This document shows, piece by piece, positions 5,500 through 52,822 of a stretch of 64,000 nt of DNA; positions within the stretch are counted from its first letter, which is position 1; each line of letters begins with the position of its first letter. The DNA is from Clostridiales bacterium (GTDB lineage: Bacteria > Bacillota > Clostridia > Lachnospirales > Lachnospiraceae), in the NCBI GenBank assembly GCA_029007845.1, contig JAQXIP010000015.1:1-64000 (forward strand), read 5' to 3'. The notes under the pieces are model-generated. The model saw only the letters and a program-made list of their open reading frames with translations. It was not told where the DNA came from and searched no databases. The position numbers and the translations under genes were made by a program.

Positions 5500-5512
5500 G
5501 TAACAGTTCAGC
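5500..5512 (+). repeat. single arm of the GTAACAGTTCAGC palindrome family
   Basis: GTAACAGTTCAGC here is identical to the left arm of the palindrome at 52186-52226. The matching right arm is not visible, so this is at most a decayed remnant. A 13-base match can arise by chance, so confidence is limited. Confidence 0.4.
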
Positions 5513-33618: not shown

Positions 33619-33958
33619 GCTGTTATCTTATTTCTGTACATGGGCTTTGATTGTTTCAAAGCTTTCTTTGCTAAAGACATGTTCAATGCGGCAGGCATCT
33701 TCTGTGGCAATGTCCAATGGAACCCCAATCAAATTCTTTGTTATAAACACACCTGCAGACTACCATCCGCAGGAGCGAAAGCGGGTATTTCATAATACCT
33801 GAGATTCTGCGGACTTTCAGAGACTGTGCATTCGTCACGGCTGAACTGTCACAGAATTTTTTTATACTGCAAAAAATTATCCTTTTGAATAGTTCCCTTT
33901 TTTCTGGTCTTTTGGTAAAATAGGAAATATGGTAAGAAATAAGGGGGGAGAAAAGAAA
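33619..33958. other. intergenic region without a convincing gene, repeat-rich
   Basis: About 340 bp with no frame that has both a ribosome site and protein-like composition. It holds an interrupted palindrome (CCGCAG near 33765 pairing with CTGCGG near 33807, with GGTATT/AATACC inside) and the repeat at 33824-33852. A promoter for the downstream operon is expected here, but no -35/-10 pair of proper spacing was recognised. Confidence 0.6.
33824..33852 (-). repeat. partial copy of the GTRACAGTTCAGC palindrome family
   Basis: Read on the minus strand this is GTGACAGTTCAGCCGTGACG followed by AATGCACAG, matching the palindrome at 52186 (GTAACAGTTCAGCCGTGACG then AGCGCACAG) apart from three bases. 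The second arm is missing, so this copy is truncated or decayed. Confidence 0.65.
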
Positions 33959-48478: not shown

Positions 48479-49936
48479 ATGAGAATAACAGTACAGGATA
48501 TTGTTGCTGCTACAGGGGGGACTCTGGTATGCGGTGACAAGGATGGCGTTGTGACATCTGCTTCTACAAATTCAAAAGAAATCACACCGGGAGCTCTGTT
48601 TATTCCGATTATTGGAGAACGGGTGGATGCCCACCGTTTTATTCCGCAGGTAATGGAACAGGGGGCTGCGGCTGCCCTGATCTCCCATGAAGCAGAACCA
48701 CAATGGAAGAAGGAGGCATCCTCATTTGCCTGCATCAAGGTTGAGGATACGCTTTTCGCCCTGCAGAAGCTGGCATCTTGGTACCGGAGCTGTTTTTCAA
48801 TACCCGTAATCGGTATAACCGGAAGCGTGGGGAAGACGACTACGAAAGAGATGATTGCCGCAGCGCTTGAGACTGAAAAAAAGGTTTTAAAGACCGAAGG
48901 AAACCAGAACAGCCAGATCGGCGTTGCCATGATGATGCTACGGTTAGAAAAGGAGCATGAACTGGCGGTTATCGAGATGGGGATGAGCGAAGTTGGAGAA
49001 ATGAAACGGCTTGCTAAGATTGCAAGACCGGAAACGGCGGTGATGACCAACATTGGTGTGTCACACATCGGTCAGTTAGGATCCAAAGAGAATATCCGGA
49101 AGGAGAAACTGAATATTATCAATGAGATGTCCGGACAGGGCAGCTTATACTACAATGGGGATGATGAACTTCTTTCCCGGCTTCCGGAATTAAAACAGGA
49201 CAAGCCGGAAGAATACCTGAATGAGGAAACAAGAAAAGAACTTCCAAAGGTTACCCTGCATTCTTTTGGAATGGATGAGACTTGTGAATTCTATGCAACG
49301 GATATCCTTATAAAAAATGGGAAAACATCATTTCGTTGTGTCTATCCTGAGGGAACGGTAGAGGTGTGTTTATCGGTTCCGGGACTGCATAATGTGGGAA
49401 ATGCGCTGGTAGCGCTTGCCATCGCCTATCAATACGGGGTATCCATAGAACATGCTGCAAAAGGTCTTTTTTCCTACCGTCCTCTTGACATGCGCGGCCA
49501 GGTTACGAATATAGATGGCAGAATCCTGATTGATGACACTTATAATGCCAGTCCGGATTCCATGAAAAGTGCCATTCAGGTTTTACTTGCCACGGAACCT
49601 GCTAGCCAGCGGATTGTTGTATTTGGGGATGTGCTGGAACTGGGTGAGGTGTCTGAACGCTGTCACGAAGAAGTGGGTGTTTATCTGGCAAATGCCGTTT
49701 TTAACGGACAGAGAGTAACGGAGTTGGTTACGCTTGGAAATCAGGCAAAATACATTGCAAAGGGCGCAAAAAATACCAATCCTTCTCTTCTGGTTCACAG
49801 CTTTGATACAAAAGAAGATGTGGTATCCTATCTGAAGGAACGGGTTAAAGAGCATACGGCTGTGGTATTTAAGGCTTCCCGTGGAATGCATATGGATGAG
49901 ATCGTGAAGGAGTTAACCGCATGTTTGCAGAAGTAA
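48479..49936 (+). CDS. murF: UDP-N-acetylmuramoyl-tripeptide--D-alanyl-D-alanine ligase
   Basis: The 485-residue Mur ligase adds D-Ala-D-Ala to the tripeptide precursor. Motifs are ITGSVGKTTTKEM (ATP loop), EGNQNSQIGV, AVIEMGMSEVGEM, IDDTYNASPDSM and GDVLELGE. It starts immediately after murE and its last 16 bp overlap priA. D-Ala comes from alr, encoded at 22603. The strong ribosome site of murE-murF coupling is the AAGGAAAA at the end of murE. Confidence 0.96.
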   Translation: MRITVQDIVAATGGTLVCGDKDGVVTSASTNSKEITPGALFIPIIGERVDAHRFIPQVMEQGAAAALISHEAEPQWKKEASSFACIKVEDTLFALQKLASWYRSCFSIPVIGITGSVGKTTTKEMIAAALETEKKVLKTEGNQNSQIGVAMMMLRLEKEHELAVIEMGMSEVGEMKRLAKIARPETAVMTNIGVSHIGQLGSKENIRKEKLNIINEMSGQGSLYYNGDDELLSRLPELKQDKPEEYLNEETRKELPKVTLHSFGMDETCEFYATDILIKNGKTSFRCVYPEGTVEVCLSVPGLHNVGNALVALAIAYQYGVSIEHAAKGLFSYRPLDMRGQVTNIDGRILIDDTYNASPDSMKSAIQVLLATEPASQRIVVFGDVLELGEVSERCHEEVGVYLANAVFNGQRVTELVTLGNQAKYIAKGAKNTNPSLLVHSFDTKEDVVSYLKERVKEHTAVVFKASRGMHMDEIVKELTACLQK

Positions 49937-52167
49937 TTGTGGATATTTCTCTTGAAAAATTAGATCGGATCTTTCAGTATATCATTCCGGAGGTTCTTGT
50001 GGAACAGGCAGTTCCCGGAGCCCAGGTAAAAGTTCCGTTTGGTAACGGCAACCGGATCGTGGATGGTTTTATTGTCAGCCTTTCAGAAAAGGCAGATTAT
50101 CCGGTAGAACGGATGAAACCAATTGCAGAGATTCCCAGAAAAGCAGTTGTTATGGAGTCACAATTAATCGCTCTGGCTTATTGGATCAAAAAACATTATG
50201 GCGGAACGATGAATGATGCGCTCCGGACAGTGCTTCCAGTGAAAAGAACGGTGAAAGCGGTGGAGAAGCGATATCTCCACCGTTTGGCGTCTGAGGAACA
50301 ATTCATACAGTTTCAGAAAGATTGTGAAAAAAAACACCGGACTGCCCAGGGGCGTCTCGCTGCTGCACTCCTTGAAAAAGACCGGTGGGAACTTCAGGAG
50401 TTAAAAAAGACATATGGGATTACAATGCCGGTAATTCATGCATTGGAAGACCGGAAGCTGGTTTCTATAACTTCAGATCAGATCTACCGGAATCCAAGGA
50501 CTTGGAATGTGGATGCGGATCAGAAACAACAGCCTGTTACTTTGAATGAGGAACAGTCAAATGCCGTTTCGGACATTATGAGGGCATATGAGAGTGGTGT
50601 ACGGACGCCATGGCTTCTTCATGGGGTAACCGGAAGTGGAAAAACAGAAGTCTACATGGAGTTAATCCGCAGAATGATGTTACTTGGGAAGCAATGTATT
50701 GTACTGATTCCAGAGATCTCTCTTACCTTTCAGACGGTACAGCGTTTTAAAAGACAGTTTGGCAATAAAGTATCCTTTTTACATTCCAGACTATCTCAGG
50801 GAGAACGCTATGACCAGTATATACGGGCGAAACAGGGTGAGATCTCGGTTATGATTGGTCCCCGGTCTGCGCTGTTTACCCCTTTTTCCAGACTGGGACT
50901 GATTATTGTGGACGAAGAGCAGGAAAACAGCTATAAAAGTGAGTCCGTTCCCCGTTATCACGCAAGGGAAGCTGCAATATACCGCAGCACGCTGTGTGAT
51001 GGAATGGTTGTGCTTGGGTCAGCTACACCGTCGGTAGAAACTTTTTATCATGTGCAAAAGGGTGATTATGCAATCGCCCACCTTACAAAGAGAGCTGTCT
51101 TGCATGCGGTTCTTCCAAAGGTACATGTAGCGGATATGAGGAAAGAACTCGAAGAAGGAAACCGTTCGATTTTCAGCCGTAGTCTGAAAATTCTGATTCA
51201 GGATCGTCTTTCAAAAAAACAACAGATTATGCTGTTTTTAAACCGCAGGGGGTTTGCAGGCTTTGTATCCTGCAGAAGCTGCGGTCAGGCGATGAAATGT
51301 CCCCATTGTGATGTGTCCCTTACCTTTCACCAGAAAAGAAAAGGGGATAGAGGGACACTGGTCTGCCATTATTGTGGCTATGAGACAGAGATGGTCATGC
51401 GCTGTCCGGACTGTGGATCCCCCTATGTGGGAACCTTTGGAATCGGAACCCAGAAAGTGGAGCAGTATCTGGCTAAGGAGTTTCCAGAAGCCAGAATTCT
51501 CCGCATGGATGCGGATACGACCCGTGGAAAAGAAGGACATGAGAAGATTCTTCTGGCTTTTCAAAAGCATGAAGCAGATATTCTTGTGGGAACCCAGATG
51601 ATTGTAAAAGGACATGATTTTCCCAATGTGACACTGGTAGGTGCGATTGCAGCAGATCTATCTTTAAATGGATCAGATTATACGGCTGCGGAGAAAACAT
51701 ACCAGCTGCTTGCCCAGGCTGCCGGCAGGGCAGGAAGGGGAAGCATTCCGGGGGATGTGGTAATCCAGACATACCAGCCGAATCATTACAGTATCTGTGC
51801 GGCAGCCGCTAACGATTACCAGTCTTTTTATGAGAACGAGATTTCTTTCCGGACTATGGCAGGATATCCGCCAGTCCAGCATCTTCTGGCTGTGTTTGTA
51901 AGCGGTGGGGATGAGAGTGCGGTAACCGGGTGCGCAAGAGCAGCGGCGGACTTTTTAAAGAGAGACCGGGACATACAGGTGTTAGGACCGATGAAAGCTT
52001 CGTTGTACCGGGCAAACGACCAGTACCGCAATGTTATCTATGTGCGAAATACGGATCCCGAACGTTTGATCTTATTAAAAGATGGTCTGGAGGAATGGAT
52101 GAAGGAGCAGATGGCATACCGGGAAATCAGTGTCACCTATGATTTTGATCCATGCCATTCATATTGA
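49921..52167 (+). CDS. priA: primosomal protein N' (replication restart helicase)
   Basis: A 748-residue 3'-5' DNA helicase that reloads the replisome at collapsed forks. It has the N-terminal DNA-binding region (ISLEKLDRIFQYIIP), Walker A LHGVTGSGKTEVY, Walker B IIVDEEQENSYK (DEEQ in place of the usual DEEH), GSATPSVET, and a zinc region with Cys pairs around SCRSCGQAMKCPHCD, CHYCGYE and CPDCGS, then motifs GTQMIVKGHDFPNVT and AGRAGRG. It overlaps the murF end by 16 bp, so is translationally linked. Confidence 0.96.
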   Translation: MFAEVIVDISLEKLDRIFQYIIPEVLVEQAVPGAQVKVPFGNGNRIVDGFIVSLSEKADYPVERMKPIAEIPRKAVVMESQLIALAYWIKKHYGGTMNDALRTVLPVKRTVKAVEKRYLHRLASEEQFIQFQKDCEKKHRTAQGRLAAALLEKDRWELQELKKTYGITMPVIHALEDRKLVSITSDQIYRNPRTWNVDADQKQQPVTLNEEQSNAVSDIMRAYESGVRTPWLLHGVTGSGKTEVYMELIRRMMLLGKQCIVLIPEISLTFQTVQRFKRQFGNKVSFLHSRLSQGERYDQYIRAKQGEISVMIGPRSALFTPFSRLGLIIVDEEQENSYKSESVPRYHAREAAIYRSTLCDGMVVLGSATPSVETFYHVQKGDYAIAHLTKRAVLHAVLPKVHVADMRKELEEGNRSIFSRSLKILIQDRLSKKQQIMLFLNRRGFAGFVSCRSCGQAMKCPHCDVSLTFHQKRKGDRGTLVCHYCGYETEMVMRCPDCGSPYVGTFGIGTQKVEQYLAKEFPEARILRMDADTTRGKEGHEKILLAFQKHEADILVGTQMIVKGHDFPNVTLVGAIAADLSLNGSDYTAAEKTYQLLAQAAGRAGRGSIPGDVVIQTYQPNHYSICAAAANDYQSFYENEISFRTMAGYPPVQHLLAVFVSGGDESAVTGCARAAADFLKRDRDIQVLGPMKASLYRANDQYRNVIYVRNTDPERLILLKDGLEEWMKEQMAYREISVTYDFDPCHSY

Positions 52168-52177
52168 AGCAATAAGG

Positions 52178-52234
52178 AACAGTAGGTAACAGTTCAGCCG
52201 TGACGAGCGCACAGCTGAACTGTTACAACAGTAG
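52178..52234. mobile_element. 41-bp palindrome with 8-bp flanking direct repeats
   Basis: GTAACAGTTCAGC (52186-52198) and GCTGAACTGTTAC (52214-52226) are perfect 13-bp inverted arms around a 15-nt centre (GTG/CAC with loop). AACAGTAG lies directly on each side (52178-52185 and 52227-52234), as expected of a target-site duplication. There is no T run, so it is not an intrinsic terminator. Related arms occur at 5500 and 33824. Confidence 0.75.
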
Positions 52235-52255: not shown

Positions 52256-52284
52256 TTGAGTTTTATTGGAAAACATGGTAATTT
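52256..52284 (+). promoter_or_regulatory. probable promoter of the def operon
   Basis: TTGAGT at 52256-52261, 17 bases, TAATTT at 52279-52284. Start near 52291; leader of about 34 nt. Confidence 0.6.
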
Positions 52285-52324: not shown

Positions 52325-52822
52325 ATGGCTTTAAGAAATATTCGTACGATGGGGGATCCCTGTCTGACCAAAATATGTAGAGAGGTAACATCGTTAACGG
52401 ATCGCGACCGGATTCTGATTGAGGATATGCTGGATACGATGTATGATGCCAGTGGAGTTGGGCTTGCTGCACCTCAGGTTGGAATTTTAAAACGGATTGT
52501 AGTTGTTGATGTAAGTATGGATGGAGATCAGCCGCTTGTTCTGATTAATCCGGAGATTCTTTCGAAAGACGGAGAACAGACCGGATATGAAGGATGCTTA
52601 AGTGTTCCTGGCAAATCCGGATTGGTAACAAGACCGGATCATGTAGTGGTGAAAGCCTATAATGAGAATATGCAGGAGATCCGGGTGGAAGGAACAGAAC
52701 TTCTTGCCAGAGCACTCTGTCATGAGATCGAGCATCTGGATGGACATCTTTATGTGGAACGGGTGGAAGGCGGACTCATTACGAATGAAGAACTCGAACG
52801 CATCATGAATGAAGAAAGTTAA
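52325..52822 (+). CDS. def: peptide deformylase
   Basis: The metallo-enzyme removes the formyl group from nascent N-terminal methionine. The 165-residue protein has the three signature blocks: GVGLAAPQVG near residue 44, EGCLSVPG near residue 87 (Cys metal ligand), and HEIEHLDG near residue 129 (two His ligands and catalytic Glu). AAGGAGAT (52312-52319) decides the start at 52325, and MALRNIRTMGDP is a typical beginning. It forms the def-fmt start-modification pair with the next gene. Confidence 0.96.
   Translation: MALRNIRTMGDPCLTKICREVTSLTDRDRILIEDMLDTMYDASGVGLAAPQVGILKRIVVVDVSMDGDQPLVLINPEILSKDGEQTGYEGCLSVPGKSGLVTRPDHVVVKAYNENMQEIRVEGTELLARALCHEIEHLDGHLYVERVEGGLITNEELERIMNEES

Follow-up and report, generated by a model that had tools for sequence, protein, structure and literature searches.

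A 41-bp palindrome between priA and def read as a short deletion form of a MITE family with 8-bp target-site duplications

Does the perfect palindrome that stands between priA and def belong to the host, as a terminator or a regulatory hairpin, or has it arrived there as a mobile element? We have addressed this question in a stretch of 64,000 nucleotides, the whole of which is referred to as the window. The layout of positions 52178-52234 is AACAGTAG / GTAACAGTTCAGC / CGTGACGAGCGCACA (15 nt) / GCTGAACTGTTAC / AACAGTAG; neither the 8-bp repeats nor the 13-bp arms contain a mismatch, and the coordinates and letters given for them in the initial annotation are correct. The palindrome falls inside the 157-bp gap between the stop of priA at 52167 and the ATG of def at 52325, and the identities assigned earlier to these two genes are upheld by their Pfam domains (Table 1). 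On folding, the 41-bp palindrome forms a stem of 13 pairs (−23.2 kcal/mol, z = −7.5). Matches to the arm at ≤2 mismatches number 8 in the window versus 1.0 expected, a count reached in 0 of 100 shuffles. We read the palindrome as a MITE insertion, with a probability of roughly 0.93.

Table 1. Coordinates of the palindrome, its parts and related features in the window.
Feature	Position	Strand	Basis
priA, upstream neighbour	49921..52167	+	Pfam PriA domains
Left 8-bp target-site duplication, AACAGTAG	52178..52185	+	same letters as 52227-52234
Left terminal inverted repeat, GTAACAGTTCAGC	52186..52198	+	perfect 13-bp reverse complement of 52214-52226
Residual interior, CGTGACGAGCGCACA, extending the left arm of the 216-bp MITE	52199..52213	+	consensus fit, 0 mismatches
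Right terminal inverted repeat, GTAACAGTTCAGC	52214..52226	-	perfect complement of left arm
Right 8-bp target-site duplication, AACAGTAG	52227..52234	+	same letters as 52178-52185
def, peptide deformylase, downstream neighbour	52325..52822	+	Pfam Pep_deformylase
Second copy, truncated half of the 216-bp element, single terminus GTGACAGTTCAGC, no duplication	33770..33852	-	nhmmer E = 2.9e-21

The terminal 12-mer GTAACAGTTCAG has 119 exact matches in the source genome, versus 0 for a reversed control pattern, and the interior sequence GTGACGAGCGCACAG has 126 at ≤2 mismatches. At least 54 copies have two ends, most of them hairpins with opposed termini 216-218 bp apart; these copy counts are lower bounds, drawn from the first 100 places among the matches listed, and the assembly is fragmented (115 contigs, 88% complete), with a number of copies at contig ends. 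The consensus of 30 full copies (mean pairwise identity 91%) is 216 bp long and makes a nearly perfect hairpin (−179.8 kcal/mol, z = −27); forms shorter than 165 bp, of 41-144 bp, are also present. The elements thus have what is expected of a MITE: terminal inverted repeats common to all copies, multiple dispersed copies, and a length (41-220 bp) below ~500 bp with no transposase gene.

Exact 8-bp direct repeats flank 20 of the 54 two-ended copies, and 32 of the 54 have such repeats at ≤1 mismatch (among the matches listed); in swapped-flank controls, in which the left flank of a copy was compared with the right flanks of other copies, the corresponding means were 0.02 and 0.13. Exact direct repeats of 5-7 or 9-11 bp were found at 0 of these 54 copies, and the duplication has a fixed length of 8 bp, with an A-rich, then T-rich composition. 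About 15 of the 54 copies show no recognisable duplication (≥3 mismatches) and may be older, rearranged or wrongly paired at their ends. A dispersed family with fixed ends and 8-bp duplications is established. The initial annotation had suggested that a mobile element was inserted here with duplication of 8 bp, and had named flanks that do not vary between genomic copies as an observation that would speak against it; the genome-wide palindrome search with flank comparison that it suggested gives the opposite picture, because the flanks differ from copy to copy and many copies carry a duplication of their own. Duplications of 8 bp are what a DDE transposase with an 8-bp stagger leaves behind; the target duplication at this locus is exact, and the palindrome therefore appears to have arrived by transposition. 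In the mechanism that we propose, a DDE transposase, which we infer to be supplied in trans, would bind the ends of ~12-14 bp, GTAACAGTTCAG(CC), and the unit would have been inserted into AACAGTAG through an 8-bp staggered cut, the repair of which would leave the flanking AACAGTAG repeats. The priA-def junction before insertion would read ...AATAAGGAACAGTAGCGAACAA..., with a single AACAGTAG.

A stable 13-pair stem could also be expected of a functional element of the host, either an intrinsic terminator of priA or a regulatory hairpin of def. We consider this very improbable: a T-run 3' of the stem is absent, so that the pattern of an intrinsic terminator (a G+C-rich stem, then a T-run) is incomplete, the consensus scan reported neither a promoter nor a terminator at the palindrome site, and the copies of the family adjoin unrelated genes, with unrelated flanks. 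The −35 box that had been placed nearby can be located as TTGAGT-17-TAATTT starting at 52256, but it is weak as a promoter and was not recovered by the consensus scan. We expect the insertion to be near-neutral, with a possible side effect of the palindrome on read-through, which may change slightly from priA into def-fmt; the finding is a warning against calling such palindromes terminators or regulators. Next to no probability attaches to a REP-like palindrome moved by a RAYT/TnpA-REP (HUH) transposase. REP and BIME palindromes are likewise short, intergenic and present in many copies, but single-strand transposition by HUH enzymes leaves no target duplication, and none is expected of REP or BIME sequences; this reading is contradicted by the 8-bp duplications that are frequent in the family.

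With respect to the 216-bp consensus, the MITE copy between priA and def consists of positions 1 to 28-30 followed by the last 11-13 bases, with 0 mismatches, and the deletion junction lies near the right end of the residual interior, at a 2-base microhomology. The deletion relation to the 216-bp form is established: as judged from the alignment, the 41-bp unit is a deletion form of an almost fully palindromic MITE, of which an end of ~29 bp and an end of ~12 bp have been kept. The earlier description of the palindrome as a second family is to be revised accordingly, as the 41-bp unit does not constitute a separate family: it is the 216-bp MITE with an internal loss of ~175 bp. The companion statement, that it is unrelated to two other copies (numbered 1 and 2), is consistent with the nhmmer search of the window with the 30-copy profile, in which the sole other significant place is the truncated copy of Table 1. 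A lone exact GTAACAGTTCAGC, a remnant or a chance match, occurs at 5500-5512 of the window in an apparently non-coding stretch, with no opposed partner.

Of 299 genomes sampled from the same bacterial family, 56 contain the terminus GTAACAGTTCAGCC, one of them as many as 154 times; the reversed control pattern has one match in all 299. In a class-wide sample, 5 of 391 genomes match it: the source genome, three genomes with single matches that lie in coding frames, as expected by chance, and a genome of another family (G666), in which seven occurrences belong to a MITE relative of ~260 bp with 8-bp duplications. The terminus is rare in the class outside the same bacterial family. MITE ends with 8-bp duplications recur in other genomes, and the family, which is now defined by sequence, spans numerous genera within a single bacterial family that is common in the gut. 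The 216-bp consensus had no match among phages and plasmids, and Rfam gave none. Among viral contigs the 14-mer gave many single matches, judged to be mostly chance, two longer terminus patterns gave none, and a single 30-bp palindrome, with no clear duplication, matched the palindrome pattern. No description of the terminal sequence was found in a text search of open-access papers.

How the short form reached this site can be read in two ways. A full 216-bp MITE may have been inserted and its palindromic interior lost later by replication slippage, leaving an immobile remnant. Long perfect palindromes are deletion-prone, and the junctions lie at microhomologies of 2-3 bases; we regard this account as possible, if somewhat doubtful. 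Against it, a copy on contig C109 has a 41-bp junction identical to that of the window copy and a different duplication (one mismatch), and the three copies of a 55-bp form, like the two of a 110-bp form, have a junction in common and stand at different sites with different duplications. Catenibacillus scindens (G091) carries units of 42-43 bp at six sites, each with a different duplication, which suggests that units as small as this may be mobile; its copies of 42-43, 32 or 28 bp with exact duplications number seven, and one further 42-bp copy has a duplication with a single mismatch. Movement of the very short forms is the simplest reading, and we infer that the 41-bp unit was itself transposed and did not shrink in place. 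The odds seem to us about even that the units of 28-43 bp, which consist of little more than a pair of transposase ends placed back to back, can move in this form and are multiplying in these genomes. If so, they would be among the smallest transposable elements, and the point ~12 bp from the terminus at which deletions repeatedly end would mark the minimal transposase site.

The ends of the IS66 family start with GTAA. In related genomes, the ends of divergent IS66-like elements (GTTACTGTTCA, GTTACAGTTCAC, GTAACTGTTCAG) resemble those of the MITE, and some of these elements are flanked by exact 8-bp repeats: an IS66-like transposase is flanked by GTTACTGTTCA in G127 (duplication GCCGGAAT), by GTTACAGTTCACACCC in G318 (duplication GTATTAGA) and by GTAACTGTTCAGAACCCCC in G014, and divergent IS66-like elements with GTTACTGTTCA are also present in G006, G321, G326 and G093. 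All four divergent IS66-like proteins scanned match Pfam DDE_Tnp_IS66. The MITE shares the 8-bp duplication with these elements and with IS66, a group with ends that begin with GTAA or GTTAC; its own GTAAC ends have near matches, none exact, in G014, G318 and G127, the best being GTAACTGTTCAG (G014) and GTTACAGTTCA (G318). The MITE of G666 has GTTACAGTTCAGCC at one end and GTAACAGTTCAGCC at the other, and the inner ends of classical IS66 copies (GTAAGCGTC, GTAAACGC) in the same bacterial family are different, which speaks against an IS66-type mobiliser. Given the similar IS66-like ends, the mixed ends in G666 and the different ends of classical IS66, the assignment is likely, not proven, and the mobiliser is probably an IS66-type transposase. 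Duplication length alone cannot separate the families that make 8-bp duplications (e.g., IS256-, ISL3- and IS1595-type), and a transposase from another of these is an unlikely but serious alternative. In its favour, no exact autonomous partner was found: IS66 and IS66-like elements carry a DDE transposase, and no such gene was found between exact GTAACAGTTCAGCC ends in the genomes searched by ends. It is opposed by the terminal GT(A/T)AC.GTTCA, common to the MITE and to IS66-like elements of the same bacterial family. Two further observations weigh against the IS66 assignment: IS66 or tnpC had no match in the source assembly (88% complete), and most MITE-rich genomes are without a divergent IS66-like protein. 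The natural deletion series, which runs from 216 down to 28 bp and in which ends and duplications persist, would make the minimal DNA need of an IS66-like transposase directly testable. A set of divergent IS66-like elements (L362, L363, L367, L482, L483) has GTTAC ends and a transposase of ~560-590 aa; the members scanned score under the NCBIfam IS66 cut-off.

Several candidates for the autonomous partner were rejected. A terminus of C. scindens (L380) lies just after the stop of an IS66 tnpC; comparison with related IS66 loci places the true end at GTAAACGC..., so that the most plausible reading of this locus is a MITE remnant joined to a fragment of IS66, the L380/L387 junction being that of a fused fragment. 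At 2146-2480 of L380 the MITE end adjoins a truncated tnpC at an apparent deletion or recombination junction. In C. scindens (C3) two termini lie in opposed orientation at a distance of 3.3 kb, and the flanking sequence that was read contains ordinary genes, with no transposase seen; the genes adjoining single termini in 10 relatives are not transposases; and in G325 a terminus is separated from the transposase fragment 5' of it by an unrelated gene as well as a gap in the assembly.

As an element type the MITE is already known, and this family is a further member. Like other prokaryotic MITEs, for example QMITE2 of Coxiella and Chunjie of Geobacter (PMC10969869), it is noncoding, with terminal inverted repeats, flanking direct repeats (7-9 bp in QMITE2; PMC10969869), many copies, a stable hairpin and deletion derivatives. 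It differs from MITEs of the QMITE2/Chunjie type in sequence and host, and its deletion series reaches 28-43 bp with ends and duplications intact. The source genome also holds a second subfamily of 165 bp (L075, L082, L085), with shared ends and a different interior, and a related interior is found in other genera (L217, L229).
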